Source: Desulfovibrio piger (GTDB lineage: Bacteria; Desulfobacterota; Desulfovibrionia; Desulfovibrionales; Desulfovibrionaceae). Taken from it: 64,000 nucleotides of DNA. Made by a program: the position numbers and the translations under genes. A model generated the notes under the pieces. The model was given only the letters and a program-made list of their open reading frames with translations. It was not told where the DNA came from and searched no databases. The stretch is taken from positions 1,199,001 to 1,263,000 of the forward strand of contig NZ_OX636706.1 in NCBI RefSeq assembly GCF_951793255.1, given 5' to 3'. Below, piece after piece: positions 7,957 to 64,000 of this stretch (its first letter is position 1; the number at the start of each line of letters is the position of its first letter).

Positions 7957-8260
7957 GGATTCCTCGGAGGCTTCCGTTTTTGACTCTTCTATTCCTGGGT
8001 ACTCTTCCCAAACGGTGGAGTGGCTATTTTGAGTTTGTCAATAATAATAGCAAGTTGCTGGCATTGGAGGATGGGAGGATTTTATGAGAAAAGTTGTATG
8101 TTTTTTTAGCCCACTCCCTGTATAGAACAGATGTTTTTTGGGAGTATTTTTTTATATAAAATCCTCCCATCCTCCCAGAAAAGCCTTTAGGTCGTAATTA
8201 GCAAGGAGAATTATAAAAGTAGGGGGGAGACGGCTGGGGAGACCTCCTCCCTCTCTCCTG
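7957..8260. repeat. Gene-free stretch with a perfect 20-bp inverted repeat
   Basis: GGAGGATGGGAGGATTTTAT at 8066-8085 is repeated exactly in inverted orientation at 8156-8175, with 70 bp between. The spacer is T-rich with CCCACTCCC and GGGAGT elements that can pair inside the arms. No gene is visible. It separates the helicase and polymerase genes. An origin, an operator for the replication genes or an RNA stem in their mRNA are all possible; nothing decides between them here. Confidence 0.7.
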
Positions 8261-10096
8261 CTAAAGCTGAAAGCTATGATCATCCTGAATCTTATCCTTG
8301 CCTTCTTTATCCAAGCCTCTGACATGTTTTGTCAGGGCCGTTCCAGGGGTTGACCTGTCAGACCCGGGACGCTTTCTATTGTTGTAGAAATCAATCAGAT
8401 CCCAAATCTCTGCATCATCATTCAGGGTGAGCCCATGGATAACCATCGTGTTGCTTTTTTGATATCTAAATCCCTTGCTTGTCATTCTGTCTTTAAATAC
8501 TTGGCGGCTATAAGTTGTATTGCCAGCCTCATGCGCCCATTGGGCATACGCAGCATAGAGGTTGCTAGAGCTTATTTTGTATTTATCAGATACCTTACAG
8601 CACTCATCAATAAAAGCCCCTAGTGTATCTTTGCTTTTTCTGTATTCATTAGTATACCTATTGATGTATTCAGGGATTTTAAGCCTGCCTTCATTGGAAT
8701 AATATACTGCCCCGTCTACAAGCCATGATAAAATGTATTGGTATTCATCTCGTAGCTTGTCTTCTAGATTATAGTCAATTTCTCCTTCATAGAAATTATT
8801 AGGATCAGGATTTTCTTTGAATGTCCTCATAAACGGGATGCAAATACAGCGCCTCAGTAAAGCTGTATCTTCGGAGTCAAAATAGGGAAAGAAGTTTGTC
8901 AAAATAATGGGAACAGCTGTCGGCATAAATTCCCTTTCATTTTGATACAGGGCTCGACCAGAGAGTTTATCACCACCAGTGATTCGCTTAAGAAATGTAG
9001 CATTGAGAGAATCTCCTCGATCGTTCTCACTACCTATCATCAGTCTCTTCCCCTCAGTAGCCATGATATCGGAAGTGGCATCTCCGCTACTTTTTTGTCT
9101 ACCCTTCATGAACATTTCTGAGCGTACCTCACAGGCATAATCATTTAGAATTTCACGTAAGACATGGCAGATGACCCCTTTGCCGTTACGCCCCTTATGT
9201 CCGACGAAGATAATAAATTTCTGTTCGGGATTGCTTCCAATTAGACAGTATCCTAAAAGCCTCTGAATGAATCCGATCAGCTGTGTAAAGTGCTCTTCAA
9301 GTTGTTCATCTGAAGCAGAGGGGAAAGCCTCTTTGACAACTGGATATAGACATTCACGCAATGTCTTTAGCCAGATCTCCGGGGCTTTTTGATATGCTTC
9401 TGGTAATAAGTCGCAGGAAGTATGCCTTCGACGATAATCCGTAGGGAGGGTGTCACGAATATCTCCAGTACGTAAATCGATTATTCCATTTGGTGTTGTA
9501 AGTGTATTTATATCTTTATCAAATATTGATTCACTTACACTACACCCATTCTTTCCATACATCGCTCGACGAATAATTCTATCGTAATTTTTCTTAGCGA
9601 TCAGACTATGCTTTTTTTTGCTTAGAGATTTACGATATTCATCGATAGCTTCTTGCATATACTTGTTATCACAGAGATCTATACTTTTTTCATTAATTTT
9701 CTTTAATGAGTCATCTATCAAATTTATAATCCAATTGTCTGCATCAAGGTATTCTCTTGATGTATCATATACCCATATGTTTCCATCAGAGCACTTTAAT
9801 ACTGGAGTTTTTGAGATGTCGTCAACGATTACGAATTTATCGTGAAGATAATGCTTCGCAATAATGTTTATGATATATATATCTTTATCAACTGGAATAG
9901 TATTCAGATCATATATCGATAAGTCTTCTTTTAATTTAATTTCTTTAAATATTTGATTGGCTTTTTCTGATGCTTGATATAACATGTCTGTATCTTTAAT
10001 TACGTTATTTTTAACTTTGTTACTACGTTTTGATGTAGTAGTTTCCTCTGCTACTTCTATAGGTTGTTCAAGGTGGTTGTTGTCAATTTTAGTCAT
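8261..10096 (-). CDS. SF3/D5-like replicative helicase, P4-type primase C-terminal family
   Basis: A 611-residue helicase for replication of the integrative element. Walker A is GHKGRNGKGV at residues 299-308 and the Walker B/sensor region contains GKRLMIGSEND and PIILTNFFPYF, followed by LLRRCICIPF. These are hallmarks of the D5_N/phage-plasmid primase P4 family. The N-terminal 200 residues lack primase motifs that I can recognise, which fits priming being supplied by the zinc-ribbon/TOPRIM domain encoded next door. The C-terminal tail (about 515-575) resembles the winged-helix end of these proteins (SNLYAAYAQWAHEAG). AGGATAAAGCT precedes ATG 10096. The gene is AT-rich compared with the flanking chromosome. 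Confidence 0.85.
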   Translation of the reverse strand: MTKIDNNHLEQPIEVAEETTTSKRSNKVKNNVIKDTDMLYQASEKANQIFKEIKLKEDLSIYDLNTIPVDKDIYIINIIAKHYLHDKFVIVDDISKTPVLKCSDGNIWVYDTSREYLDADNWIINLIDDSLKKINEKSIDLCDNKYMQEAIDEYRKSLSKKKHSLIAKKNYDRIIRRAMYGKNGCSVSESIFDKDINTLTTPNGIIDLRTGDIRDTLPTDYRRRHTSCDLLPEAYQKAPEIWLKTLRECLYPVVKEAFPSASDEQLEEHFTQLIGFIQRLLGYCLIGSNPEQKFIIFVGHKGRNGKGVICHVLREILNDYACEVRSEMFMKGRQKSSGDATSDIMATEGKRLMIGSENDRGDSLNATFLKRITGGDKLSGRALYQNEREFMPTAVPIILTNFFPYFDSEDTALLRRCICIPFMRTFKENPDPNNFYEGEIDYNLEDKLRDEYQYILSWLVDGAVYYSNEGRLKIPEYINRYTNEYRKSKDTLGAFIDECCKVSDKYKISSSNLYAAYAQWAHEAGNTTYSRQVFKDRMTSKGFRYQKSNTMVIHGLTLNDDAEIWDLIDFYNNRKRPGSDRSTPGTALTKHVRGLDKEGKDKIQDDHSFQL

Positions 10097-23286: not shown

Positions 23287-23931
23287 GGTACGTCAACTCC
23301 ATCTGTAAGGACGTTCGCCAGTCCGCATGAGCAGGCCGGTGATGTGGGTCACAAGGCTGTGCCGTCAGACACAAGCTAGCCTGAGGGCAGCAATTTCCAT
23401 GCCGCATCAGGGGGATTTTAACGATCTTCAATTATATTGGCTGCGTAAGGTTGTTTTGCCTTTATCTGCGGGCCGGGAGCCCTTGGCTCAGGGCATTCAT
23501 GGCCGGTGACCGATGCCGCTGTCGCGGGTCTGTCTGCAGGGATGGGCTGCATAAGGCAGATAAATCAAGGTGCTGGAGGGGGTGGCCCACTGAAGGAGCT
23601 TCAGGAGGGTACGGTTAGCCAAATAATCACAAGCAGGTCTTTTTTTACAGAATATAATATAAATTTTGATATAAAAATTAAAATTTTTTTATTTTACTTA
23701 TCATTTTTTAAATTAAAATAATGGTTATTATTCCTTTTTTCGTGAGAAAACGGGATATTGTCCGACATAGGGAAGTTTTTCACATATGGCACGCTTATTG
23801 CTGTGTAGGGAGGGACTATAGTTTTCGCCCGGGAGTTCGCCAAAGGGTGCAACGACCAGGCTTCATGTGCATGTATGGCAGCCATAACAAGCGATCCGCA
23901 GCGGTATCAAATTCATAACGGAGAAAATGGT
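23287..23931. other. Long regulatory region before the APC permease
   Basis: No gene is supported in these 645 bp. The left 350 bp are GC-rich and belong to the divergent EamA gene's upstream side. From about 23640 the sequence becomes very AT-rich (poly-A/T tracts, ATAATGGTTATTAT) up to a consensus sigma-54 promoter at 23787. CTGAAG-GAG-CTTCAG near 23591-23605 is a small palindrome that could be an activator site about 190 bp before the promoter. Confidence 0.6.
23787..23802 (+). promoter_or_regulatory. Consensus sigma-54 promoter of the APC permease
   Basis: TGGCACGCTTATTGCT matches TGGCAC-N5-TTGCW at every position. It is followed by a 130-nt leader and the permease ATG at 23932. The sigma-54 activator encoded at 26451-27962 is the obvious regulator. 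Confidence 0.88.
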
Positions 23932-25398
23932 ATGTCGGAACAGGTCAAGTTGGAAAAGTCCCTCTCGCCGTTGCAGGTGTGCGCACTGGCTTTGGGCTCC
24001 ATTGTCGGTTGGGGTTGCTTTGTGCTGCCCGGTGATATGTTCCTGCCCCAGGCCGGTCCTGTGGGTACCCTGCTTGGTTTCTTTGTAGGTGCCTGCCTGA
24101 TCAGCTTCGTTGCTGTATGCCTCAGCTACATGGTCAAATACGCCCCTGTTGCCGGCGGTGCTTTTGCTTATGCGTATATCGGTTTTGGCCCCCGCGCCGC
24201 TTTTGTTTGCGGCTGGGCGCTGGTGATCGCCTATCTTGCCGTTGTTGCTATCGACATCGCAGCCCTTTCGGTCATTTTCCGCTTCCTCTTCCCCGGTGTG
24301 TTCGAGTTCGGAGAGCTCTATTCCATCGCCGGATGGACCGTGTATTCCGGTGAAGTCATATTGATGACGGCCGGTACCCTCTTCTTCGGTTACATCAACT
24401 ATCGCGGTATCGGCTTTGCCGGCGCCCTGCAGCTGATCCTGACCTTCATGCTGACCTTCGGCACCCTGGCCCTGTTCGGCGGCGTGCTGACCCTGGATAC
24501 CGCCAGCGTGGCCAACCTGAGCCCCGCCTTCTCCGACAAGCGCAGCATGCTGGCCTGCGTGCTGCTGGTCTTCGCCATCTCTCCCTTCCTGTTCGCGGGC
24601 TTCGATACCGTGCTCCAGGCTGCTGAAGAATTCGCCTTCGATCCTTCCCGTGCCCGCAACATCATGGTCGTCGCCATCTTCTGCGGCGTGCTCCTGTACG
24701 CCATGGTGATGCTCTCCGTGGGCATGGCCGTGCCGTATCCTGAACTGCTGGCCAAGCTCGACGCCCAGCGCGCCACCGGCGGCGCCGCCTGGGGCACCGG
24801 TGAAGTGGCCACCATGGCCTTCGGCAAGTTCGGCTCCATCGTGCTGGCCGTGGCCGTGTTCGGCGCCGTGTGCACCGGTACCAACGGCTTCTTCATCGCC
24901 ACCAGCCGCCTGCTGCTCAGCATGTCCCGCAGCGGCATCCTGCCCGCCTGGTTCGGTGAGATCCATCCCAAGTACCGCACCCCCTACAAGGCCATCCTGT
25001 TCACCATCATCGTCGTGCTGCTGACTCCCTTCGCCGGCCGCTCCGCCGTGGCCTGGACCGTGGACATGAGCTCCGTGGGTACCGGTATCGGCTACCTGTT
25101 CACCTGCCTGGCCGCCCGCCGCGTGATCATGGGCAGCGAAGGCGTGGACAAGAAGGGCCTCAAGCTGTTCTGCTGCGCCGTGGGTACCATCACCGCCGTC
25201 ATGTGCATCCTGCTCCTGCTGGTGCCCGGTTCCCCCGCCCGCATCGGTACCGCCCCCTTCATCTGCTTGGCCGTGTGGGTCGTGCTGGGCTTCATCTTCT
25301 ACTTCTCCAACAAGAAGCACTGGATCTCCCTGCCTGAAGAAAAGGTCCGTGAGAACGTGCTGGGCCGCAAGGACATCGCGGTCTTCTTCAAGAAGTAA
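23932..25398 (+). CDS. APC-superfamily amino acid/amine permease
   Basis: A 488-residue inner-membrane transporter with 12 predicted hydrophobic helices. The N-terminal signature GSIVGWGCFVLPGDMFLPQAG in helix 1 (broken here: GSIVGWGCF then VLPG) is the APC substrate-binding kink, and FAGFDTVLQAAEEF in the sixth helix region is typical of the amino acid-polyamine-cation group. CGGAG before ATG 23932 sets the start. It is driven by its own sigma-54 promoter and closed by a terminator at 25465, and it belongs by position and regulation to the glycyl-radical-enzyme locus, so it probably imports that pathway's substrate, which by family should be an amino acid or amine. That link is an inference. 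Confidence 0.82.
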   Translation: MSEQVKLEKSLSPLQVCALALGSIVGWGCFVLPGDMFLPQAGPVGTLLGFFVGACLISFVAVCLSYMVKYAPVAGGAFAYAYIGFGPRAAFVCGWALVIAYLAVVAIDIAALSVIFRFLFPGVFEFGELYSIAGWTVYSGEVILMTAGTLFFGYINYRGIGFAGALQLILTFMLTFGTLALFGGVLTLDTASVANLSPAFSDKRSMLACVLLVFAISPFLFAGFDTVLQAAEEFAFDPSRARNIMVVAIFCGVLLYAMVMLSVGMAVPYPELLAKLDAQRATGGAAWGTGEVATMAFGKFGSIVLAVAVFGAVCTGTNGFFIATSRLLLSMSRSGILPAWFGEIHPKYRTPYKAILFTIIVVLLTPFAGRSAVAWTVDMSSVGTGIGYLFTCLAARRVIMGSEGVDKKGLKLFCCAVGTITAVMCILLLLVPGSPARIGTAPFICLAVWVVLGFIFYFSNKKHWISLPEEKVRENVLGRKDIAVFFKK

Positions 25399-25495: not shown

Positions 25496-25623
25496 ATCGG
25501 GCTCCCGGCGCCCCTTGCCAAAACGGCATGGGGCCCCTATGCAGGAGCAGCAATCCAGATCATGCGGGACGCCGCGGCCCCGGGAAGACCGGCGGCGGGG
25601 CAGCGTCCACAGGAGGGAAGGTT

Positions 25624-26361
25624 ATGCCCGAAGCTACGGACCTTTTTGTTTTCTTCGCCTGGATCCTGGGCGGTTTCGTCTCCGGCGTGAGCGGCATCGG
25701 CGGGGCCATGGTGGCCTTTCCCCTGCTGGCGCTGGTCATCCCCGTCCACCAGCTCATCGCGCTGACGTGCATCATCAACGTGGTCATGGACGGCTGTCTG
25801 GCCGGCATGCATTTTCGCCATTGCCGGCTTTCTTCCCTTTGGCCCATGCTGGCGGGGTCCGTGCCCGGGTCCTTCGCCGGGCTCTATATCCTGCAGATCT
25901 GTTCCGGCGCCGTCCTGCAGGGGGCCGTGGGCCTGCTGCTGCTTTACTATGTGTACTGGCAGATGACCTACCGCGCCGCACAGGGGCCTGTGTCCCACCC
26001 GCAGATGCTGGGTGCCGCGGCGGGCTTCGGGGCCGGGCTGCTGGGCACGGCCATCTCCTTCGACGGCCCGCCCATCGGCGCCTATGGCCTGTGCATGGGC
26101 TGGGAGCCGCGCGTCTTCCTGGGCACGCTGGGCGTCTTTTTCGTGATCCGCGGTTCCCTCACCGTGATCCTGCAGGCCACGGCCGGCTTCTACACGCCGG
26201 AAGTCCTGGGCTATGCCCTGTACGGGGCGCCCGGTGTCATCCTGGGCACGCTGCTGGCCTTCCCTGTGGCCAAGCGCATCCCGCAGGAGACCTTCCGCAA
26301 GGTCCTGCTGGTCATCATCGGCGTGGCCGGGGCGGTCTGCCTGGTGCGCGCCTTCCTGTAG
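25624..26361 (+). CDS. TauE/SafE-like sulfite/organosulfonate exporter, copy 1
   Basis: A 245-residue inner-membrane protein with 7-8 hydrophobic helices in two repeats. GGFVSGVSGIGGAMVAFPLL (residues 16-35) is the TauE signature and LLGTAISFDGPPIGAYGL begins repeat 2. TauE/SafE proteins move sulfite, sulfoacetate or related anions out of the cytoplasm, though many members are uncharacterised. GGAGG before ATG 25624 fixes the start. A near-identical paralogue lies at 32891-33625 on the other side of the glycyl radical enzyme cluster. A strong terminator separates it from the convergent sigma-54 activator gene. Confidence 0.85.
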   Translation: MPEATDLFVFFAWILGGFVSGVSGIGGAMVAFPLLALVIPVHQLIALTCIINVVMDGCLAGMHFRHCRLSSLWPMLAGSVPGSFAGLYILQICSGAVLQGAVGLLLLYYVYWQMTYRAAQGPVSHPQMLGAAAGFGAGLLGTAISFDGPPIGAYGLCMGWEPRVFLGTLGVFFVIRGSLTVILQATAGFYTPEVLGYALYGAPGVILGTLLAFPVAKRIPQETFRKVLLVIIGVAGAVCLVRAFL

Positions 26362-26450: not shown

Positions 26451-27962
26451 TCAGTCTTCGTTTTCGATGTGCAGGACCTTCATGCGGTAGTGCAGGCCCG
26501 CCGGGGTCAGCTCCATGATCCGGGCAGCCTTGGCCACGTTGCCGCCGGTCACGCGCAGTACGTTGCGGATGCAGCTGGATTCGTATTCGTGCAGGCAGGT
26601 CTTGATGGAGACGCTGTCGCCGCGCCGGATGCCGCGGTAGTCGAAGTAGTCCGGCGTCGTGGCCGCGGAGACCGGCATCTGGGGCTCCGCGCGCATCATG
26701 TTCGGCAGGGGCGGGCGCAGGTCGTCATCGGCGGGCTGGAGGTTGCAGGCCTCGCGGAAGTGGCGCGGCAGGTTGTGGACGGTGATGATGTCGCTGCCGT
26801 CCAGCAGGGCCAGGCTGCCTTCGATGACGTGGGCCAGTTCGCGGATGTTGCCGGGCCAGGGGTAACGGCGGAAGATGCCCATGACCTCGTCGTCCAGGGT
26901 GACGCCGGCGGTTTTCATGGCCAGTTCCGAGCGGTTGATGATGTGCCGGACCAGCAGGGGGATGTCGTTCTGGCGCTTGCGCAGGGGCGGTACGGCGATG
27001 CCCACCACGGCCAGACGGTAGAAAAGGTCGCGGCGCAGCAGGCCCTGGTCCACGGCCCGCAGGGGATGCTCGTTGAGGATGCTGATGATGCGCACGTTGA
27101 TGGGGATCTCCGTATGGGAGCCCAGACGGCGCACGCGCTTTTCCTGGATGACGCGCAGCAGCTTGGCCTGCAGGCCCAGGGACATGGAGTTGAGTTCGTC
27201 GAAGAGCAGGGTGCCGCAGTTGGCCTTTTCGAACAGGCCGGGCTTGTCCGGGGCGTCGGTGTAGGCGCCCTTGACGGTACCGAACAGGATGCCTTCCAGC
27301 AGGTTTTCCGGGATGGCGGCGCAGTTGACCGGGATGAACGGATGCCCGGCGCGGCTGCTGGCCGAGTGGATGGCCTGGGCGAACAGTTCCTTGCCGGTGC
27401 CGCTCTCGCCCCAGATCATGACCGGCGAGGAGCTGGTGGCCGCGGAGCGGGCTTCATGGATGCATTCCTGCAGGGCTTCGTCCCGGCCCACGATGCTGGA
27501 GAAAGTATAGTAGTTGTAGGGCGCGTCCGCGTTGCAGGGCTTGAGGGGGCGGCGCGACTCCGAAAAGTGGGCGGTGTTGCCCGTCCAGATGGCGAAGACG
27601 ATGACGCCGTCCTTGCGCCCGTGGTCGAACAGGGGGAAGAAGTCCGCCACCGTGCTGATCAGGAAGTTGGTGGAGGTGGCGTACCAGTAGGCTTTTTTGA
27701 GCAGGGGCTTGCCGGTCTGGAGGCATTCCATGGTGGGGATGACCTCCCGCTCGTGGGGGACGTAGAGGCTGGTGATGTGCTGCCCTTCCACGGGGATGCG
27801 GGTGAAACCGTCGGCACGGCGCTGGATGGGGTTCATGTATTCGCAGATGCCGTCGGCATCGACCACGGCCACACCGATGCACATATTGTCCCAGATGGCC
27901 CGGACCTGCGGCGTCAGTACCGAGGCCCGGTTGACGTTGTAGAACTGGCGGCTGTTGAACAT
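26451..27962 (-). CDS. PAS-domain sigma-54-dependent activator (NtrC/RocR type)
   Basis: A 503-residue regulator. Residues about 15-130 form a PAS sensor (GVAVVDADGICEYMNPIQRR), with no response-regulator receiver, so it likely senses a ligand directly. Residues about 155-390 are the AAA+ domain: Walker A GESGTGKE, Walker B LLFDELNSM, and the sigma-54 contact loop reads GAYTDA instead of GAFTGA. The C terminus carries a Fis-type HTH (GNVAKAARIMELTPAGLHYRM). It is divergent from the glycyl radical enzyme gene and convergent with TauE-1. Two sigma-54 promoters lie in the locus (23787 and 28111), so it should control substrate uptake and breakdown together. Confidence 0.9.
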   Translation of the reverse strand: MFNSRQFYNVNRASVLTPQVRAIWDNMCIGVAVVDADGICEYMNPIQRRADGFTRIPVEGQHITSLYVPHEREVIPTMECLQTGKPLLKKAYWYATSTNFLISTVADFFPLFDHGRKDGVIVFAIWTGNTAHFSESRRPLKPCNADAPYNYYTFSSIVGRDEALQECIHEARSAATSSSPVMIWGESGTGKELFAQAIHSASSRAGHPFIPVNCAAIPENLLEGILFGTVKGAYTDAPDKPGLFEKANCGTLLFDELNSMSLGLQAKLLRVIQEKRVRRLGSHTEIPINVRIISILNEHPLRAVDQGLLRRDLFYRLAVVGIAVPPLRKRQNDIPLLVRHIINRSELAMKTAGVTLDDEVMGIFRRYPWPGNIRELAHVIEGSLALLDGSDIITVHNLPRHFREACNLQPADDDLRPPLPNMMRAEPQMPVSAATTPDYFDYRGIRRGDSVSIKTCLHEYESSCIRNVLRVTGGNVAKAARIMELTPAGLHYRMKVLHIENED

Positions 27963-28207: not shown

Positions 28208-30652
28208 ATGACCGTACATCAGTTCGAAGACAACGCCGCCAAGGGCGCCCAGGGTTACGCCATCAACTGGGACACCGCCGAAGCCCGCGTGAAAGACCTC
28301 AAGGCCTATCTCATGAACGCCCCTCAGGTTATGGACCCCGAGCGGCTGCAGTTCCTGAACGAGGTGTATGAGGAGTTCCAGGGCGAACCCGTTTTCTACA
28401 TCCGCGCCAAGCTGCTGGAACGCGTGCTGACCAAGAAAAAGATCTTCCTGGACGGCAACCCCATCGTGGGCACCCTGACCGGTACCCGCGCCGGCGTGTA
28501 CGCCTATCCTGAATGGAACGTGGCCTGGATCAAGGAAGAGATGCAGATGGCCAAGATGGCCTCTCTGGGCGAGATGAAGATCCCCCAGGAGACCACCGAG
28601 CTGCTGGAAAAGACCTACAAGAAGTGGAAGGGCCGCACCTGCATCGACCTGAACAACAAGATGTTCAAGGACAAGTACGGCTTCAACCCCGCTCCGTACT
28701 CCAAGGCCGGCGTGTACTATGACAACGTCAGCGTGGCCAGCGGCTCCGGTATCGCCGACTACCCCCTGGCTCTGAACAAGGGCCTGCGCTGGGTCATCGA
28801 CGACATCAAGAAGCGTCTGCTGGAATGCCCCACCACCCTGGCCAACAAGGAAAAGCATGACCTGTACCGCGCCATGATCGTGGCCACGGAAGCCGTCATC
28901 GCCCACTCCCACCGTTACGCCGATCTGGCCGAGAAGACCGCCGAGACCGAGACCGATCCCAAGGCCAAGGCCGAACTGCTGGAGATCGCCGAGATCTGCC
29001 GCCGCGTGCCCGAATTCCCGGCCCGCAACTTCCGTGAAGCCATCCAGTCCTTCTGGTTCATCCACCTGGCCATCGAAGTGGAACAGATGGCCTGCGCCTG
29101 CTCCCCGGGCCGCTACGGTCAGTACATGTACCCCTTCTACAAGAAGGACATCGAAGAGGGCAATCTGACCCGCGAACAGGTGCTGACCCTGCTGAAGTTC
29201 CAGTGGATCAAGCATCTTGAGCTGGCCGAATACCAGGGCGGCTCCTACGCCATGACCCTGTCCGGCCACACCGGCCAGAGCATCACCATCGGCGGCGTGG
29301 ACGCCAACGGCAACGACGCCAGCACCGAGCTGGAAGAACTGCTGCTGGAGACCCAGATCCAGATGAAGAACATCCAGCCCACGCTGACCCTGCTCTACCA
29401 TCCCAAGCTGAAGGAATCCTACATGCAGAAGGTGGTGGAATGCATCCGCGGCGGTTCCGGCCAGCCCCAGATCCTCAACAACAACGTGGTCATCCAGCGC
29501 AACCTGGCCCGCTTCTCCCAGTACGAAGGCGGCATCACCCTGGAAGACGCCCGCAACTGCGGCAACTACGGCTGCGTGTCCACCGGCATCTGCGGCAAGG
29601 GCAGCTTCATCACCCAGGAAGACCAGCCCTGCCTGGCCAAGATCGTGGAACTGATGCTCTACAACGGCAAGGACCCGCTGACCAAGAAGCAGCTGGGCAT
29701 CGAGACCGGCGACCCGACCGAGTTCCAGAGCTTCGACGAAGTGTACGACGCCTACAAGAAGCAGCTGCGCCACATCTTCGGCATCTCCCGCAAGCACTCC
29801 GACCTGAGCCAGATGGCCCGCCTGCAGGTGGTGCCCAGCATCTTCCGCTCGGTCATGTACGACGGCTGCATCGAAAAGGGCATGTGCGAAGAAGCCGGCG
29901 GCACCCGTTATCCCCAGGTCAACCCCATCATGACCGCCGGCGTCGACGCCGCCAACTCCCTGCTGGCCATCAAGCACCTGGTGTTCGACACCAAGAAGAT
30001 CACCATGGCCCAGCTGATGGAAGCCATCAAGGCCAACTTCGAAGGCTATGAGGACATCCGCAAGATGTGCTTCGAAGCCCCCAAGCACGGCAACGACTAC
30101 CCCGAAGTGGAAGGCTTCGTGCAGCAGTACTACCGTGACGTGGACGAGATCCACCACTCCGTGGGCCCGGACTGCTTCGGCCACCGTACGCCCCTGGACG
30201 CCTACTCGCTGTCCTACCACAACTACTTCGGCTCCCTCATGGGCGCCCTGCCCACGGGCCGCAAGGCCGGTGTGGCCCTGACCGACGGCAGCGTGTCCGC
30301 CATGCCCGGCACCGACCATGAAGGCATCACCGCCCTCATCAAGTCCGGCGCCGAAGCCATCGACACCGTGCGCTACGGCGCCAACCACTTCAACGTCAAG
30401 TTCGTGCCCTCCGCTCTGGAAGGTCCCAACGGTGCCCGCACGCTGATCTCGCTCATCAAGACCTACTGCGACTTCGGCGGCTCTCACATCCAGTTCAACT
30501 GCGTGAGCTCCGACACCCTGCGTGACGCCCAGAAGAACCCGCAGGACTACACCGACCTGGTGGTCCGCGTGGCCGGCTTCAGCGCCTACTTCACCCGTCT
30601 GGACAAGGGCGTGCAGAACGAGATCGTCAAGCGTACCGAGTACGCTTCCTAA
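28208..30652 (+). CDS. Glycyl radical enzyme of unassigned substrate
   Basis: An 814-residue member of the pyruvate formate-lyase-like family, made active by a radical on G790 in RVAGFSAYF. The thiyl-radical Cys is C456 in NCGNYGCVSTGICGKG. In eliminases, decarboxylases and the sulfite lyases IslA and HpsG this reads GCVE; here Glu is replaced by Ser-Thr. It also lacks the double Cys of true pyruvate formate-lyase. The usual G-H-x-x-P-x-Y segment reads SGIADYPLALNKGL. So it is neither a standard diol/choline/isethionate enzyme nor PFL. The activase gene follows after 89 bp with a hairpin between. Company of an APC permease and two TauE-like exporters hints at a C-S or other bond cleavage yielding an exported anion. 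Strong codon bias suggests high expression. Confidence 0.85.
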   Translation: MTVHQFEDNAAKGAQGYAINWDTAEARVKDLKAYLMNAPQVMDPERLQFLNEVYEEFQGEPVFYIRAKLLERVLTKKKIFLDGNPIVGTLTGTRAGVYAYPEWNVAWIKEEMQMAKMASLGEMKIPQETTELLEKTYKKWKGRTCIDLNNKMFKDKYGFNPAPYSKAGVYYDNVSVASGSGIADYPLALNKGLRWVIDDIKKRLLECPTTLANKEKHDLYRAMIVATEAVIAHSHRYADLAEKTAETETDPKAKAELLEIAEICRRVPEFPARNFREAIQSFWFIHLAIEVEQMACACSPGRYGQYMYPFYKKDIEEGNLTREQVLTLLKFQWIKHLELAEYQGGSYAMTLSGHTGQSITIGGVDANGNDASTELEELLLETQIQMKNIQPTLTLLYHPKLKESYMQKVVECIRGGSGQPQILNNNVVIQRNLARFSQYEGGITLEDARNCGNYGCVSTGICGKGSFITQEDQPCLAKIVELMLYNGKDPLTKKQLGIETGDPTEFQSFDEVYDAYKKQLRHIFGISRKHSDLSQMARLQVVPSIFRSVMYDGCIEKGMCEEAGGTRYPQVNPIMTAGVDAANSLLAIKHLVFDTKKITMAQLMEAIKANFEGYEDIRKMCFEAPKHGNDYPEVEGFVQQYYRDVDEIHHSVGPDCFGHRTPLDAYSLSYHNYFGSLMGALPTGRKAGVALTDGSVSAMPGTDHEGITALIKSGAEAIDTVRYGANHFNVKFVPSALEGPNGARTLISLIKTYCDFGGSHIQFNCVSSDTLRDAQKNPQDYTDLVVRVAGFSAYFTRLDKGVQNEIVKRTEYAS

Positions 30653-30741: not shown

Positions 30742-31638
30742 ATGAGCCAGGGAATGATCTACAATATCCAGAGGATGTCCGTTCAGGACGGTCCCGGCCT
30801 GCGGACCACGGTCTTTCTGAAAGGCTGTCCTCTGCGCTGCCTGTGGTGCAGCAATCCCGAATCGCAGCAGTTCACGCCGCAGATGCTGCTGTTCGACAAT
30901 CTTTGCGTGGGCTGCGGCGCCTGTATGCGGGTCTGTCCCAGCGGCGCCGTGGTGCCGCTGGAGGGCGGCAAGATGGGCCGCGATACGGAAAGATGCACCC
31001 ATTGCGGCGCCTGTACCGAGGTCTGTCCCAGCAAGGCGCGCGTCATGTCCGGCCGTATCATGACCGTGGAAGACGTCATGGAAGTGGTCCGCAAGGACTG
31101 GCTCTTCTACGAGAACTCCGGCGGCGGCGTGACCTTTGGCGGTGGCGAGCCCACGTCGGGCGGGCAGTTCTTCCTCGATCTGGTGCAGACCGCCCATGAC
31201 GAGGGCCTGCACGTCACCGTGGATACCTGTGGCTTCTGCCCCGAGGACCGCTTCGACAAGACCATCGGCCTGGCCGACCTTTTCCTGTTCGACTGCAAGC
31301 ACATGGACCCGGAACAGCACAAAAAGCTCACCGGGCAGGACAATGCCCTCATCCTGCGCAACCTGGAGGCCGCGCTCGCTTCCTCCACCGAAGTGCGCGT
31401 GCGCATGCCCCTGATGCCGGGCCTCAACGATTCCGACGAGAACCTGGCGGCCATGGCGGCCTTTTTGGGGCGTTTCGGCCGCAGGCAGGTGGAGATCATG
31501 CCCTGCCATGCCTTCGGCAAGAGCAAGTACGCCGCCCTGGGCAAGCCCTACCCCGATGTGCAGCAATACACCCCTGAGGGTCTCAAGGCCGCGGAAGAGC
31601 GCTTTGCCCGCCACGGTCTTGTCCCTGTCATCGTATAA
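30742..31638 (+). CDS. Glycyl radical enzyme activating enzyme (radical SAM)
   Basis: A 298-residue activase that abstracts a hydrogen from G790 of the adjacent enzyme with the 5'-deoxyadenosyl radical. The radical SAM cluster motif is GCPLRCLWCSNPES (Cys-x3-Cys-x2-Cys). An inserted ferredoxin-like domain has two 4Fe-4S sets, CVGCGACMRVCPSGAV and CTHCGACTEVCPSKA, typical of activases for non-PFL glycyl radical enzymes. GGEPTSGG is the SAM-binding GGE motif. GGGGGAGG before ATG 30742 sets the start. The short spacing and shared strand place it in one operon with the enzyme and the HesB-like genes. Confidence 0.93.
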   Translation: MSQGMIYNIQRMSVQDGPGLRTTVFLKGCPLRCLWCSNPESQQFTPQMLLFDNLCVGCGACMRVCPSGAVVPLEGGKMGRDTERCTHCGACTEVCPSKARVMSGRIMTVEDVMEVVRKDWLFYENSGGGVTFGGGEPTSGGQFFLDLVQTAHDEGLHVTVDTCGFCPEDRFDKTIGLADLFLFDCKHMDPEQHKKLTGQDNALILRNLEAALASSTEVRVRMPLMPGLNDSDENLAAMAAFLGRFGRRQVEIMPCHAFGKSKYAALGKPYPDVQQYTPEGLKAAEERFARHGLVPVIV

Positions 31639-31656: not shown

Positions 31657-31950
31657 ATGTTCACTGTTACTGTTGACGAGAGCATGCTGGAAAAGCTCCG
31701 CGGCATGCTGGAAGACGAGGATGAAGGTACTTGTGTGCGCCTGCGCGAATACAAGGTCGGCGGTGGCTGACATGCCAAGATCGTGCTCGGTCTGGGCATG
31801 GACGAATTTGACGAAGACGAAGACGAGCAGATCGACATCGACGGCGTTCCTTTCGCCGCGGAGAAGGATTTTCTGGAAAAGTACGGGACGGCCTTCACGC
31901 TGAGCTACGGCGAGAACAAGGAAGTGGTCCTGACCGCCAACCAGGCCTAA
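31657..31950 (+). CDS. HesB/IscA-like selenoprotein (Sec at TGA 31768-31770)
   Basis: A 97-residue HesB-like protein read through an in-frame TGA at codon 38. The next gene (32083-32376) is its paralogue with exactly the same length and the same frame register, and carries TGC (Cys38) at that position in GGG(C/U)HAK. The fold matches A-type Fe-S carriers, where this Cys is the first cluster ligand. A downstream hairpin fits a bacterial SECIS, and selB lies in the same window (63497-64000). HesB-like proteins are a recognised prokaryotic selenoprotein family. It starts 18 bp after the activase stop behind GGAG, so it is part of the GRE operon. It has only one of the Cys ligands found in classical IscA, so a redox or metal-trafficking role is as likely as scaffold work. 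Confidence 0.87.
31768..31800 (+). promoter_or_regulatory. UGA-Sec codon and candidate SECIS hairpin
   Basis: After TGA (31768-31770) CATGCC (31771-31776) pairs with GGCATG (31795-31800) and AGATC (31778-31782) with GGTCT (31789-31793), with one A-G mismatch between stems and a six-base loop GTGCTC starting with G-U. The Cys paralogue keeps the outer stem but not the inner one. The loop begins 12 nt after UGA, a little closer than most described bacterial SECIS elements. Confidence 0.65.
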
Positions 31951-32082
31951 TCTCCCGGGGAGGGAGCTCCGGCCATGACCGCCGTTCGTCTGCACCATAC
32001 TCCATGCCTGCTGTCCCGGGCCGTGGAGCGCGTGCTGCCGCGGTCCTGCCCGTTCACCCCCAACCCCTGAGGAGAAAAGACC

Positions 32083-32376
32083 ATGTTCACCGTGACTGTT
32101 GATGATGCCATGCTGGCCCGCCTGCGCGAGATGCTGGAAGACGAGGACGACGGTGTGCGCGTGCGCCTGCGTGAATACAAGCACGGCGGTGGCTGCCATG
32201 CCAAGTTCATCCTGGGCCTGGGCATGGACGAGCCCGACGAGGAAGAATACATCTGCATCGACATCGACGGTGTGCCCTTTGTGGCTGCCAGGGATTTTCT
32301 GGACAAGTACGGCAAACGCTTCAGCCTTGGCTACAACGCCAACCGCGAAGTGCTGCTGGAAGCTCTGGATGCCTAG
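32083..32376 (+). CDS. HesB/IscA-like protein, cysteine paralogue
   Basis: A 97-residue cytoplasmic HesB-like protein in tandem with the selenoprotein. Residues 30-60 (VRLREYKHGGGCHAKFILGL) contain Cys38 in the place of Sec; GMDEPDEEEYICIDIDGVPF and DFLDKYGKRFSLGYN follow the IscA pattern (DE..D...... G......D..S...L.G...D). The C-terminal CxC of classical IscA is absent. GAGGAGAAA before ATG 32083 is a good ribosome site. It is the last gene before a strong terminator, so the operon is GRE-activase-HesB(Sec)-HesB(Cys). A backup for selenium-poor conditions or a partner of the Sec form are both possible. Confidence 0.85.
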   Translation: MFTVTVDDAMLARLREMLEDEDDGVRVRLREYKHGGGCHAKFILGLGMDEPDEEEYICIDIDGVPFVAARDFLDKYGKRFSLGYNANREVLLEALDA

Positions 32377-32428
32377 CCTGACGACGCCGTCCTGACCTGG
32401 CGACTGCCGCCATCAGGGCGAATACGCG

Positions 32429-32461
32429 GGGAGCCTGTCCACCGGACAGGCTCCCTTTTTT
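32429..32461 (+). terminator. Terminator of the GRE operon
   Basis: GGGAGCCTGTCC pairs perfectly over 12 bp with GGACAGGCTCCC, loop ACC, followed by TTTTTT. Confidence 0.93.
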
Positions 32462-32890
32462 CATGCTTTTTTCCTCTTTCCCCTGTTGCCAAAAGGCCGC
32501 TCCCTCCCTAAGCATGGACTGCGCGGCCCGTGCTGCAGGCGTGCAGGGGCGGGCAGGGGAGGAGCCGTGGCGCGAAAGGCCCCGCAGGCAAGGCCAGCCT
32601 CGCGGGGAGCGATGCCGCATGGTGCGGCAGGCTGCCGCACGCTCGTGCCGCCCCCTGTGGAGCGGGAAGTCCCATGTGGCGCAGGCCCGGCGGCACAGGC
32701 CGTCTTGCTGCGGATGGACGGGGAAACGCTCCACGGCAGGTCCCTGGCGGGAGCGGTCATCACCGTACGGATGGAGGATGGCCTCGCCCGTGCGCTGTCG
32801 GCACGCCACCGGCTGTCCGCTGGCGGAGCGGCAAGCGGCTGAAGTTTGATTTCATCCACTGATGGGCGGCCGTGGCCGCAGGAGGGGCGT
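32462..32890. other. Gene-free GC-rich stretch before TauE-2
   Basis: All frames here are open by composition, but none has a ribosome site and conserved-looking protein together. I see no sigma-54 box and no clear sigma-70 promoter. Several short GGC/GCC inverted repeats are present. Confidence 0.5.
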
Positions 32891-33625
32891 ATGCCCGGGA
32901 TGACAGAGATCTGTGTGTTCCTCGCCTGGATCGCGGGCGGTTTCGTGTCCGGCGTCAGCGGCATCGGCGGCGCCATGGTGGCCTTTCCCTTCCTGGCCAT
33001 GCTCCTGCCGGTGCACGAAGCCATCGCCCTGACCTGCATCGTCAACATGGTCATGGACATCTGTCTGGCCAGCCTGCATTTCCGCTTCTGCCGCGTCAGC
33101 GCCCTGTGGCCCATGCTGCTGGCCTCGGTGCCCGGGTCCTTTGCCGGGCTCTACATCCTCCAGATCTGTTCCGGCCCCGTGCTGCAAGGCGCCGTGGGCC
33201 TGCTCCTGCTCTATTACGTCTACTGGCAGAAGACCTTCCGCGCCCGCGGTACCATCGCCCATCCCCGGGCGCTGGGCGCCGTGGCCGGTTTCGGCTCCGG
33301 CCTGCTGGGCACGGCCATCGCCTTCGACGGCCCGCCCGTGGGGGCCTACGGCCTGTGCATGGGCTGGGAACCGCGCGTGCTGCTGGGCACGCTGGGCGTC
33401 TTCTTCGTGCTGCGCGCCACCGTGACCCTGGTGCTGCAGGGCATGGCCGGTTTCTACACGCCCACGGTGCTCACCTGCGCCATGTACGGTGCGCCCGGCG
33501 TCATCCTGGGTACCTGCATCGCCTTCCCCGTGGTCAAGCACATCTCCCAGCAGGCCTTCCGCAAGGTGCTGCTCTGCGTCATCGCCGTGGCGGGCCTGGT
33601 CTGCCTGGTGCGGGCGCTGGGCTAG
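32891..33625 (+). CDS. TauE/SafE-like exporter, copy 2
   Basis: A 244-residue membrane protein, a close paralogue of 25624-26361: long blocks are identical or nearly so (GGFVSGVSGIGGAMVAFP, VPGSFAGLYILQICSG, MGWEPRV(F/L)LGTLGVFFV). Seven to eight helices in two repeats as in other TauE/SafE proteins. GGAGG before ATG 32891 decides the start over an upstream ATG at 32846. It follows the GRE operon after its terminator, so it probably has its own promoter. Two such exporters around one enzyme suggest that disposal of a toxic anion matters, or that each serves a different anion. Substrate inferred only from the family. Confidence 0.85.
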   Translation: MPGMTEICVFLAWIAGGFVSGVSGIGGAMVAFPFLAMLLPVHEAIALTCIVNMVMDICLASLHFRFCRVSALWPMLLASVPGSFAGLYILQICSGPVLQGAVGLLLLYYVYWQKTFRARGTIAHPRALGAVAGFGSGLLGTAIAFDGPPVGAYGLCMGWEPRVLLGTLGVFFVLRATVTLVLQGMAGFYTPTVLTCAMYGAPGVILGTCIAFPVVKHISQQAFRKVLLCVIAVAGLVCLVRALG

Positions 33626-38295: not shown

Positions 38296-38518
38296 TTTTT
38301 GCTGTCTGGAAGGCAGAAAAGATATGTCCTGTCGGTAGATTTTGCCCATTTACCCTTGTCCATCAAGATTATTGCACTCGCAACTATTTGTAATATTATG
38401 AAATATTAGAAAATAAAGTTGATAAAAATATATAATTTTATCTAAACAAAAACGAAATTCATTTTCTATAATACCATGATGATAGGGAGCAGTGGGGCGG
38501 CTCAAAAAAGGAGGAAAC

Positions 38519-41500
38519 ATGAAAGAGACCCAAGGTGCACTGAGCATGCTGCTGCGCCGCTACCGTCTGATCCTGGGCAAATGCCGGTTGCGAAACGCAC
38601 TGGCAGGGCTGCTGTTGGGGGCTGTCCTGCTGGCTCCCGCCGTTTCGCCGGCCGACAGCGGCGGCAAGGTCGGCCGCCCCGGATATCCTGAGGGCAGCCA
38701 TTACACGGGCACCACGGATGGCGCTTCCGGTCCGTACACGGCGGACAAGGGGCATGTCATCATCTCCAACCAGGCAGGGGATCTGGACGCCAAGTCGTTT
38801 TACGGTGGCCATGCTGACGGCAAGGGCGATGTGACGGACAACAAGGTCGAGATGCGGGGCGAGAGATCCCGGGCTGCCAATATCTACGGCGGCCTTACGG
38901 AAAACGGGCAGGCATCCGGCAACAGGGTGAGCGTGGAAAATGGCCGTATCGGCGGTGTCTGGGCCGGTGGCCGCATCTACGCAGGCTTCAGTGAGGCCGG
39001 TAACGCGCGTGACAATACGCTGGAGATCCGCAACGGCTACATCGAGGGCTCCCACACCGAGGTGTCTGCCGGGTATGCGGTAAAAGGCGACAGCACGGGC
39101 AACGGGCTCACCATCAGCGGCGGCAGCATCAGCCGCACGAGCGCTGACCATTTCGTCAGTGCCGGTTTCAGCCATGAAGGCAACGCGCGGGACAATACCC
39201 TGACCGTCACCGGCGGAGAGCTGGGAACAGAAGCCTACGGCGGCTACGTCCGGACCGGGACCGGCGAGGCCTCGGACAACCGGGTGGAATTCTCCGGCAG
39301 TACCAGTGCCGTGACCAAGTTGACCGCAGGCTGGAGCGGCGGAGCCGACGCCCGCGGGAACAGTCTCGTCATGAGCAGCGGTACCGTCAGGGAGTCCCTG
39401 ACCGGCGGAGATTCCCTGACCGGCCTCGCTTCCGGCAACAAGATAGAGATACACGGCGGCGAAGTGGGCAAACACGTCTATGCCGGTCACACCGATCGCG
39501 GCGGCGCTTCTGCCAACGAGCTGCTCATCGATGGCGGCACCATAGCCGGCAGTGCCTATGGCAGCTTTATCGCAGACAACAGCTCCCGGACGGCGGAGGG
39601 CAGCAAAATCAGCTTCGGCGGGACAGCCACTGCAGAGTTCCTGGTCGGTGGCTACAGTGCCCGGGGAGATGCCGTCGGCAATGAGGTGACGGTCAGCGGC
39701 GGTACGGTCCGCATGAATGTCATGGGCGGCGAGAGCCGCAGCGCGGCGGCCCGCAATAATACTGTCCGGGTCACGGGCGAAACCATCGGTACCGAGAGTG
39801 ACGAGGGCTTCGTCCACGGCGGTTACAGCAACACGGGCAGTGCCGACAACAATACCGTCATCATCGAGGGCGGGAACCTGCGCAGCGTCATGGGCGGTTA
39901 CGTGGAAAGCGGCGCCGGTTCGGTAAACGGCAATACCGTACTGTTCGGCGGCGGCAGCATCAGCGGCGCCGATGAAGGCCTGTACGGCGGTTACACGGAC
40001 CAGGGCGATGCCAACGGCAACACGGTCCTCATCAGCGGCGGTACGCCCGGCAACGAGGTCTGCGGCGGTTTCGTCTGGACGGGCACGGGCAGTGCCACCG
40101 GCAATACCGTCATCCTCGAAGGGGCTCCCGACCTGGGCGGCACCCGCCTGTACGGCGGCGCCACGGGGAACGGCCACGGGGACATGCGCACCGGCAATAC
40201 TCTGGAGATCCGGACTTCGGGCCTGAAGGCCGTCAACGTGGGCAACTTTGCCAATTACCGCTTCATCCTGCCGGAAAAGACCACTGCCGGCACGACCGTC
40301 CTGACCCTCACGGATGCCAAGGGCACGGACATCAGCAACAGTTCTGTGGGTGTTGCCGTGGCCGGGGGCAAGCCTCTGCTCCGCAAAGGGGACAGCGTCA
40401 CCCTGCTGGCCAATGAGCATGGCCTGAAGGCCGAAGGCATGACCCAGCAGCGCCTTAGCGGACAGCAGGGGTCTTCGTGGTCTATGACTTCGATCTGAAG
40501 ACCACGGATACCTCGTTGATGGCCACCGTGACCGATAGCGTGCAGCCCCGCGGCCGGGAGGGCGGGCCGTCCGGCGATACGGGGGCCCGTCTGGCGCCGC
40601 AGGCCAAGGCACCGCTGGAAGGCGTGCTGGCCAACGTGGCCCTGGGCAACATCGGCGCCGACCTCGTGGCCGGGCAGGGCATCGACCAGGCCCGCTCTGC
40701 CGCCGTCGCCAGGGGAGAAGGCTCGGCCTGGGGCATCGCCCCCTTTGCCGCCGTCACCGGCACGCGTTCGCGCTATCAGACCGGCTCGCATGTCGATCTG
40801 AGTGGCGTTGCCTTCATGACCGGCTTTGCCAAGCGGGTGGAGACGTCCATGATGGGCATCCTGGCGGGCGTCTTCTTCGAAGCGGGCTTTGCCCGTATGG
40901 ACACACACAACAGTTTCTCCAGCGGTCCTTCCGTGGACGGCGATGGCCGGAGCAGCTACTACGGCGGCGGTCTGCTGGCCCGTCTGGACCTGAAGGAAGA
41001 CCTGCTCAAGGGCCTGTATCTGGAAGGTTCCTTCCGTTACGGCCGCCTCAACAGCCAGTGGCAGAGCGATGACCTGCATGATGCCGTCAGTGGTCGTAAG
41101 GCCGAGTATGACCTTTCTACGCCGTACTACGGCCTGCACGCCGGACTGGGCTATGTGTGGGAGCTGACCGAAAGTCTGACTCTGGATGTCTACGGCAAAT
41201 ACTTCTGGACCCATACCGAAGGCCAGTCCACCCATATCGTGGACGACCCCTGATCGTTCGACGGCGTGGATTCGCAGCGCCTGCGTCTGGGAGCGCGGCT
41301 GGGCCATGAATTCTGCCGACAGGTGACCGGCTATGCCGGGGCGGCCTGGGAACACGAGTTCAACGGCAAGGCCCGCGCCACCACCTACGGCCTTGAGGCC
41401 CCCGCGCCCAGCCTGAAGGGCGACAGCGGTCTGCTGGAAGCCGGTCTGACCCTCACGCCCGTGGAAGGTTCCGGCCTGAGCCTGGACTTCGGCGTCCAGG

Positions 41501-63496: not shown

Positions 63497-64000
63497 CTAG
63501 CGGCCCCGATACTGCCGGGCGTCTCCCACCCGGACGGTGATCTTTTCCCTGTCCATGAATTCCAGCAGGGCGATGAGGTACTTGCGCGAAAGGTCCAGGA
63601 TCTCCTTGAGGCCGCCCACGTCCAGATCCTCATGGTCGCTGAACCACAGGCGCACCTTGTCCAGGATCTCTTCCACGGCCTCGTTGCCGTAGTAGAGGCC
63701 GTCCTTGACGCGCACCAGCTTCTTCTGTTCGCACAGCAGGCGCAGGACGGGCGCCGCCTCCTTGCTGCTCACGCCCAGTTCCTCGAGCACGTCCTTGAGG
63801 TTGGGCGGGGTCAGGCCCGCGCTGGTGTGGGCCTCCAGCAGCTTGCGGCTCAGGCCCTCCTGGTCGGAAGCCAGCGTGACCTTGTGGCTGGCCAGGCGCA
63901 GGCCGTCGCCTTCGGCCACCAGCAGGCCCTTTTTCTGGGCCGCTTCCAGCACGCGCGCCACCAGACGCTGGGGCAGCTTGTCGCTCCAGCCGGCGCACAG
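63497..64000 (-). CDS. selB: SelB, selenocysteine-specific elongation factor (C-terminal part)
   Basis: The frame is open to the right edge, so only the C-terminal 167 residues are in the window. They are winged-helix repeats, ending in DLSRKYLIALLEFMDREKIT and then VRVGDARQYRGR, the closing pattern of SelB, whose last winged helix binds the SECIS loop of selenoprotein mRNAs. SelB carries Sec-tRNA to the ribosome. Its presence supports reading TGA 31768-31770 as selenocysteine. The next gene downstream is the disulfide reductase, 190 bp on. Confidence 0.85.
   Translation of the reverse strand: MCAGWSDKLPQRLVARVLEAAQKKGLLVAEGDGLRLASHKVTLASDQEGLSRKLLEAHTSAGLTPPNLKDVLEELGVSSKEAAPVLRLLCEQKKLVRVKDGLYYGNEAVEEILDKVRLWFSDHEDLDVGGLKEILDLSRKYLIALLEFMDREKITVRVGDARQYRGR

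Follow-up and report, generated by a model that had tools for sequence, protein, structure and literature searches.

The window (the whole 64-kb stretch of DNA analysed here) is a piece of a complete 3.08-Mb genome, and the locus that concerns us shares 95.7% DNA identity across 9.3 kb with that of a close relative, Desulfovibrio piger ATCC 29098. At this locus the gene of a glycyl radical enzyme (GRE) and the gene of its activating enzyme are followed by two small paralogous genes, one with an in-frame TGA and one with a cysteine (Cys) codon at the same place. The features referred to below, in positions counted from the first letter of the window, are:

23875..25398, + strand: APC-superfamily amino-acid permease, recurrent neighbour (in 8/27 stretches compared)
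25528..26361, + strand: TauE/SafE family permease, recurrent neighbour (PF01925, 108.8 bits; in 10/27 stretches)
26451..27962, - strand: sigma-54-dependent regulator, divergent (homologue in 18/27 stretches compared, window included)
28208..30652, + strand: GRE, 814 aa (PF02901 and PF01228; Cys loop GCVSTG with C456; radical loop RVAGFSAYF)
30742..31638, + strand: GRE-activating radical SAM protein with ferredoxin-type 4Fe-4S motifs (TIGR02494, 363.9 bits, cut-off 174.35)
31657..31950, + strand: selenocysteine (Sec) copy of the ErpA-related protein, 97 aa, U38 (NF033940, 136.4 bits, cut-off 65)
31768..31770, + strand: in-frame TGA read as Sec, codon 38
31783..31799, + strand: conserved bacterial SECIS core GUGCUC-GGUCU-GGGCAU (nt 16-32 from the U of UGA)
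32083..32376, + strand: Cys copy of the ErpA-related protein, 97 aa, C38 (NF033940, 119.3 bits, cut-off 65)
32194..32196, + strand: TGC (Cys) codon at the TGA position, codon 38
32428..32456, + strand: intrinsic-terminator-like hairpin of 13 pairs with a T tail, 3' of the Cys gene
32846..33625, + strand: second TauE/SafE family permease, 3' of the terminator (PF01925, 105 bits)
63506..63895, - strand: selB, 3' part only (the match runs past the window to G000:C1:1264431)

A preliminary description of this DNA had reported two paralogues with TGA and TGC both at codon 38 of 97, placed after a GRE gene and its activase gene. Coordinates, lengths and register proved exact, both enzyme genes lie upstream on the same strand, and we could confirm that this arrangement, a Sec/Cys paralogue pair following a GRE and its activase, goes beyond chance. 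It had also placed selB in the window, which is accurate for the 3' part, but the gene extends past the window end. An Rfam search of the window returned two tRNAs and nothing else. The 13-pair hairpin probably closes the GRE operon, and its sequence is also visible in D. piger; a scan of 5 kb gave four terminator-like sites in all where chance predicts 4.0, and the remaining three have five pairs each. The divergent sigma-54-dependent regulator probably controls the operon.

The two TauE/SafE permease genes (25528-26361 and 32846-33625), which flank the operon, are about 79-80% alike in DNA, as judged from cross-hits with the D. piger region. Elsewhere in the window, genes for a DNA polymerase I-like protein and a P4-family primase (5479-10096, minus strand) suggest an integrated mobile element, and 38492-40498 encodes a long repetitive protein with many short Gly/Asn-rich repeats that looks, by eye, secreted or surface-located.

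The in-frame TGA and its SECIS

For the SECIS comparison, 22 TGA copies (from 21 loci) and 18 Cys copies were aligned without gaps on the recoded codon. The set omits L040, whose product is the same as that of L038; in L046, the second Cys copy, which is nearly identical to the first; in L049 and L050, the third copies with their many cysteines; the copies at L053 and L060; the copies that have neither Sec nor Cys (that of L061, and the third ones at L046 and L092); and duplicate records of loci already included. TGA or a Cys codon stands at the same aligned position in all 22 and 18 copies. Counted from the U of UGA, a 6-bp stem at nt 16-21 and 27-32, enclosing a 5-nt loop, is present in every TGA copy (22/22; 132/132 cells paired), three of its pairs being changed on both sides among these copies, and a G occupies position 1 or 2 of the apical loop in 22/22. 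None of 500 shuffles equalled this stem in the share of cells paired, in covariation score or in the count of doubly changed cells; by two coarser measures, 34 and 24 of 500 reached the observed level. Slid registers in the TGA copies were 20-46% paired. Among the Cys copies, 69/108 cells of the stem (64%) are paired, against 30-44% in slid registers, and the stem is complete in two of the 18, those of L049 and L048, where it looks like a remnant left after a Sec-to-Cys change; a strong tRNA-Sec match is absent from the genome of L048 (G010).

The conserved stem is visible by comparison, and single-sequence folding alone would have missed it. Folding of the sequence after the window TGA yields the hairpin named in the preliminary description, with a weak z of -1.66, and the folding energies of the Sec copies relative to synonymous resampling are mixed (z = -3.2 to +1.2). 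The register conserved in 22/22 Sec copies is the one at 31783-31799; the hairpin from single-sequence folding was rejected as the conserved SECIS, and other copies fold otherwise.

The window's genome contains selA, selB and selC, so that neither selA nor selC is missing, and D. piger ATCC 29098 keeps the TGA, with neither TGC nor TGG in its place. Relative to D. piger, the Sec gene is under purifying selection (dN 0.009, dS 0.199, dN/dS about 0.05). Strong tRNA-Sec matches (E <= 4.5e-15) were found in 16/16 genomes with a TGA copy, counted where this copy lies beside a GRE of the clade described below and also in G061 and G064, where its contig is broken, and in 2/5 Cys-only genomes. In the remaining three (G001, G010 and G031) the best match does not go beyond about 4e-9, which is the level of second matches, taken as other tRNAs, in genomes with a real tRNA-Sec, although the match in G001 (50.3 bits) passes the Rfam gathering score. 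The exact probability of this split, computed by hand, is 0.0075. The weak-hit genomes G008, G086 and G087 were excluded because their genes belong to the HesB-like family. The fully paired SECIS stem, the co-occurrence with tRNA-Sec, the presence of selA, selB and selC and the purifying selection all bear out the earlier reading of the TGA as Sec, and at the level of sequence comparison it is strongly supported that the TGA gene encodes a real selenoprotein.

Family, fold and copy history of the small proteins

Both window proteins score over the cut-off of 65 of NF033940 (ErpA-related iron-sulfur cluster insertion protein) over nearly their full length. By score the window pair belongs to this family, whose name implies Fe-S insertion as a putative function. 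With Pfam PF01521 (Fe-S_biosyn) they reach 19.9 and 18.2 bits, under the gathering score of 26.3, and NF038090 (IscA_HesB_Se) gives a weak match to the Sec protein (23.5 bits, cut-off 85). The pair had initially been taken as HesB-like, which was not borne out: TIGR01911 lists neither window protein at E up to 0.001, and the window motif is UHAK, without the UxGP. HesB-like selenoproteins (TIGR01911), on which there is earlier work (PMC1794560), do resemble the pair in being A-type-like, in carrying Sec in a glycine-rich loop and in forming Sec/Cys tandem arrays, but their loop motif is USGP (UxGP), whereas the family of the pair has UHAK, UKSK or UKSH. The classical HesB-like selenoprotein was rejected as an identity for the pair because its model passes over the pair and picks out three genes in another part of the genome. 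These form an array at G000:C1:2140764-2141992 (L054 8759-9996), with Cys in two genes and a TGA in the last. Mixed HesB-like Sec/Cys arrays also occur in L056, L058 and L059, and no GRE hit was found beside HesB-like arrays in the stretches fetched (L054, L056-L059).

The predicted fold is A-type (pLDDT 89), and the closest structural matches, DsrR (Z 10.4), IscA (10.3) and SufA (10.0), are tied, with differences under 1. A-type carriers have three ligand cysteines, the last two forming a C-terminal CxC. The Sec or Cys of the small proteins aligns with the first ligand Cys of HI1723, in a weak alignment (E = 0.018), and no CxC was found after residue 60 in any of 46 small proteins, of which 45 were read to the stop and one as far as its contig goes. 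The small proteins therefore lack the three-cysteine site that A-type carriers have. One Sec/Cys is conserved among them, without conserved partner cysteines. What is common with IscA, SufA and ErpA is the fold (Z about 10) and, by the weak alignment, the first ligand position, but not the C-terminal CxC. Among 149 relatives, NF033940 has matches in 24 genomes, 19 of them over the cut-off; in an even phylum draw it exceeds the cut-off in 5/395 genomes, of which only G162 lies outside the window's genus. Over-cut-off members are rare beyond the family Desulfovibrionaceae.

A Sec gene followed by a Cys gene was found at 11 loci (the window, L034-L036, L043, L044, L049, L092, L102, L104 and L105), and the Sec copy is nearer the GRE in all of them; several are close kin, so that there are fewer than 11 independent cases. 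The pair thus recurs beside GREs in relatives, where the preliminary description had suggested looking for it. The Sec copy is alone at nine of the fetched loci (L038-L042, L045, L052, L055 and L101), L050 has two Sec copies and a third copy, further loci carry Cys copies only, and neither Sec nor Cys is present in L061 and the third copies of L046 and L092. A tree of the 40 copies needs 11 label changes, at least five of them forced by well-supported branches. The Cys copies do not cluster together, which implies repeated origins of the pair or conversion of copies. The window's Cys copy sits on a long branch (0.40; Sec copy, 0.02). D. piger ATCC 29098 has an intact Sec gene and, at the syntenic place, a 3' remnant of the Cys gene (L042 9226-9310), the rest being missing; the remnant's local score of 57 compares with a maximum of 35 in 500 shuffles. 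From these sequences we infer that the Cys copy is dispensable and the Sec copy the main form. An obligate Sec/Cys hetero-pair is disfavoured, because of the nine lone-Sec loci and because only a remnant of the Cys gene is left in D. piger. The Sec/Cys duplicate, which had been singled out as the notable part of the locus, does recur, but with an apparently dispensable Cys copy it is instead the exclusive pairing with one GRE clade lacking a particular glutamate, described next, that stands out.

Linkage to one glycyl radical enzyme clade

The window GRE scores 526.3 bits with the PFL2-3 subfamily model, under the cut-off of 678.2, and no equivalog model is above its cut-off. Its best sequence match is glycerol dehydratase, with TutD far lower in the ranking. 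A structure predicted from nine close sequences had a mean pLDDT of 40 and was set aside. When the 149 relatives were searched with the window GRE, at least 23 among the matches listed had an identity of 50% or more, the next had 44% (38% on a fuller alignment), and the others among the matches listed had at most 37%; we refer to the first group as the clade. For 20 of the 23 clade GREs listed, an NF033940-type gene shares the contig at a distance of about 1.1 kb or less. In G051 the GRE is split over two contigs and the pair follows the second piece, and contig ends inside the activase of G061 suggest a similar split there. G031 was not scored; its small gene (L047), on a 6.6-kb contig, is the one over-cut-off member without a GRE in sight. 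Wherever a clade GRE has its flank on the same contig, the small gene adjoins it (21/21; 20 among the relatives and G162). The small proteins at three of these 21 (G001, G046:C31 and, as L061, the second GRE of G057) are below the cut-off, and in G001 and G046:C31 the small gene is found between GRE and activase.

As controls, 44 other GREs were chosen by hand from the listed matches of the same relatives, a sample dominated by few enzyme kinds. None of the 44 has the small gene in the DNA fetched around it, the flank being under 1.5 kb on one or both sides in 6/44, and all 44 of their activases have at least six Cys in the ferredoxin stretch. A general service to GRE activases is disfavoured by this absence.

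The clade also differs at the Cys loop. The glutamate two positions after the cysteine (CXE) is absent in 20/20 clade GREs aligned, which read GCVST, GCVGT, GCVAT, GCVAS or SCVGT, and present in 42/44 controls. The two exceptions, L091 and L094 (GCVQS and GCVLH), lack the glutamate and have no small protein either, so that the lack of this residue alone does not bring the partner. According to PMC8473560, a CXE motif with a catalytic Glu defines the GRE eliminases (CutC, HypD, IslA and the like), from which the clade is thus set apart. In the X-succinate synthases of the benzylsuccinate synthase type, which carry out fumarate addition and have Fe-S small subunits, a Glu-less Cys loop occurs too (CMSPG in TutD); in sequence the window GRE best matches a glycerol dehydratase.

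It is mostly in the window's branch that GREs have APC and TauE/SafE permeases as recurrent neighbours; four GREs of other branches (L037, L049, L050 and L053) have TRAP transporter genes nearby. As a guess from these neighbours, the recurrence of the two permeases hints at an amino acid or a sulfonate as the GRE substrate. D. piger is a prevalent sulfate reducer of the human gut and, according to PMC6453916, makes use of a different GRE for isethionate. The genome of D. piger ATCC 29098 has a second clade GRE (L061 5764-9428), whose small protein is without Sec or Cys and has the loop GGDRH.

Proposed role of the small proteins

The exclusive linkage to one clade, with none to the other GREs sampled that have similar activases, favours a role at the GRE over general Fe-S supply. 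We give an even chance to the combined proposal that the Sec and Cys genes encode two versions of a single small A-type-fold protein serving as a dedicated accessory of one GRE clade, the TGA copy being a real selenoprotein. Judged from gene order and sequence, the small proteins are probably a dedicated part of an uncharacterised oxygen-sensitive GRE of gut sulfate reducers; the gene neighbourhood would fit a subunit and a maturation factor alike and cannot tell one from the other. The small subunits of 4-hydroxyphenylacetate decarboxylase are accessory subunits of that GRE, and they and those of benzylsuccinate synthase have a [4Fe-4S] cluster, several cysteines and a fold other than A-type. 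Those of benzylsuccinate synthase are likewise accessory to a particular GRE, as stated in PMC8473560. By analogy with both, the small protein would bind the GRE or the complex of GRE and activase, where its single Sec or Cys would either make a contact for redox or radical chemistry or ligate a cluster that the two halves of a dimer share. The principal version would be the Sec copy, with the Cys copy as a dispensable stand-in that has been derived repeatedly, for example for times when selenium is short. Some copies have lost both Sec and Cys, so the residue is not always needed.

It had been suggested that the pair provides a dedicated Fe-S or redox service to the enzyme. The dedicated link to the GRE holds (21/21 against 0/44), but a plain Fe-S service to the activase fits poorly with 44/44 control activases being similar and with the CxC being found in 0/46 small proteins. 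We still see some possibility, well short of an even one, in a dedicated Fe-S carrier. It would supply or repair clusters, either those of the activase or those of a different Fe-S protein in the pathway, and Sec would be a ligand that is tighter, or else more labile. The A-type fold, the NCBIfam name, the Sec/Cys at the first ligand position of the weak HI1723 alignment and the Fe-S activase in the operon would all suit such a carrier; the absence of the gene beside all 44 other GREs with ferredoxin-type activases, the lack of the CxC and the scores under the Pfam Fe-S_biosyn gathering threshold do not.

It is unlikely, in our view, that the Sec copy is a selenol or thiol reductant or a radical quencher that reduces or repairs the GRE (its glycyl radical, thiyl Cys or an oxidised form), and so either protects it or completes a turnover needing an outside hydrogen donor. 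Selenols release hydrogen atoms more easily than thiols, and the lone conserved Sec/Cys without conserved partner cysteines and the exclusive tie to one GRE clade would agree with this role; against it, there are copies with neither residue, and no redox partner recurs among those neighbours that were identified. Somewhat more doubtful still is the idea that the Sec of a repurposed A-type subunit acts directly in the radical chemistry of the GRE, by relaying the glycyl or thiyl radical, by donating hydrogen or by quenching the radical, in a role filled in other GREs by the CXE glutamate or by nothing.

DsrR, the first of the tied structural matches, is not known to carry Sec or to be linked to a GRE. 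According to PMC11406059, DsrR of Allochromatium vinosum puts its IscA-like fold to a purpose other than Fe-S carriage and takes part in regulating sulfur oxidation. A comparable regulatory role here would draw on that precedent and on the structural match, but we hold it to be quite improbable: the match is common to the whole A-type group, the role of DsrR gives no reason for a conserved Sec, and DsrR belongs to sulfur-oxidation genes (PMC11406059), the small proteins here to a GRE operon. Finally, a true stop in a decayed gene copy would need nothing beyond the standard code and would suit the unremarkable folding energy after the TGA in several copies, but we give it practically no credence: all 22 copies have their TGA at one and the same codon and a SECIS that covaries, dN/dS is about 0.05, and the presence of tRNA-Sec matches.

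Most prokaryotic selenoproteins are of unclear function according to a 2026 inventory (PMC13188914), and in the portions of it available to us, NF033940 is absent from the table of 119 prokaryotic families, which does include the HesB-like one (TIGR01911, UxGP), and the words 'glycyl', 'IscA' and 'ErpA' were not found in the text. A literature search, covering a part of what is in print, returned no report of a GRE with an IscA- or ErpA-related protein or with a selenoprotein in Desulfovibrio. The curators of NF033940 may already be aware of Sec-containing members. A Sec-containing small protein tied to one enzyme clade offers a concrete partner to test. If the small protein is a subunit of the GRE, Sec would enter glycyl radical biochemistry, and a Glu-less GRE clade present in the human-gut D. 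piger would gain a missing component. Furthermore, the repeated pairs with Sec first and Cys second, together with the two Cys copies that fold the SECIS, make up a natural series of Sec-to-Cys conversion within a single type of locus. A cysteine-rich loop (e.g. GCVSCR) marks the third paralogues at L049 8607-8903, L050 8985-9275 and L048 9649-9915, which form a branch of their own in the tree.
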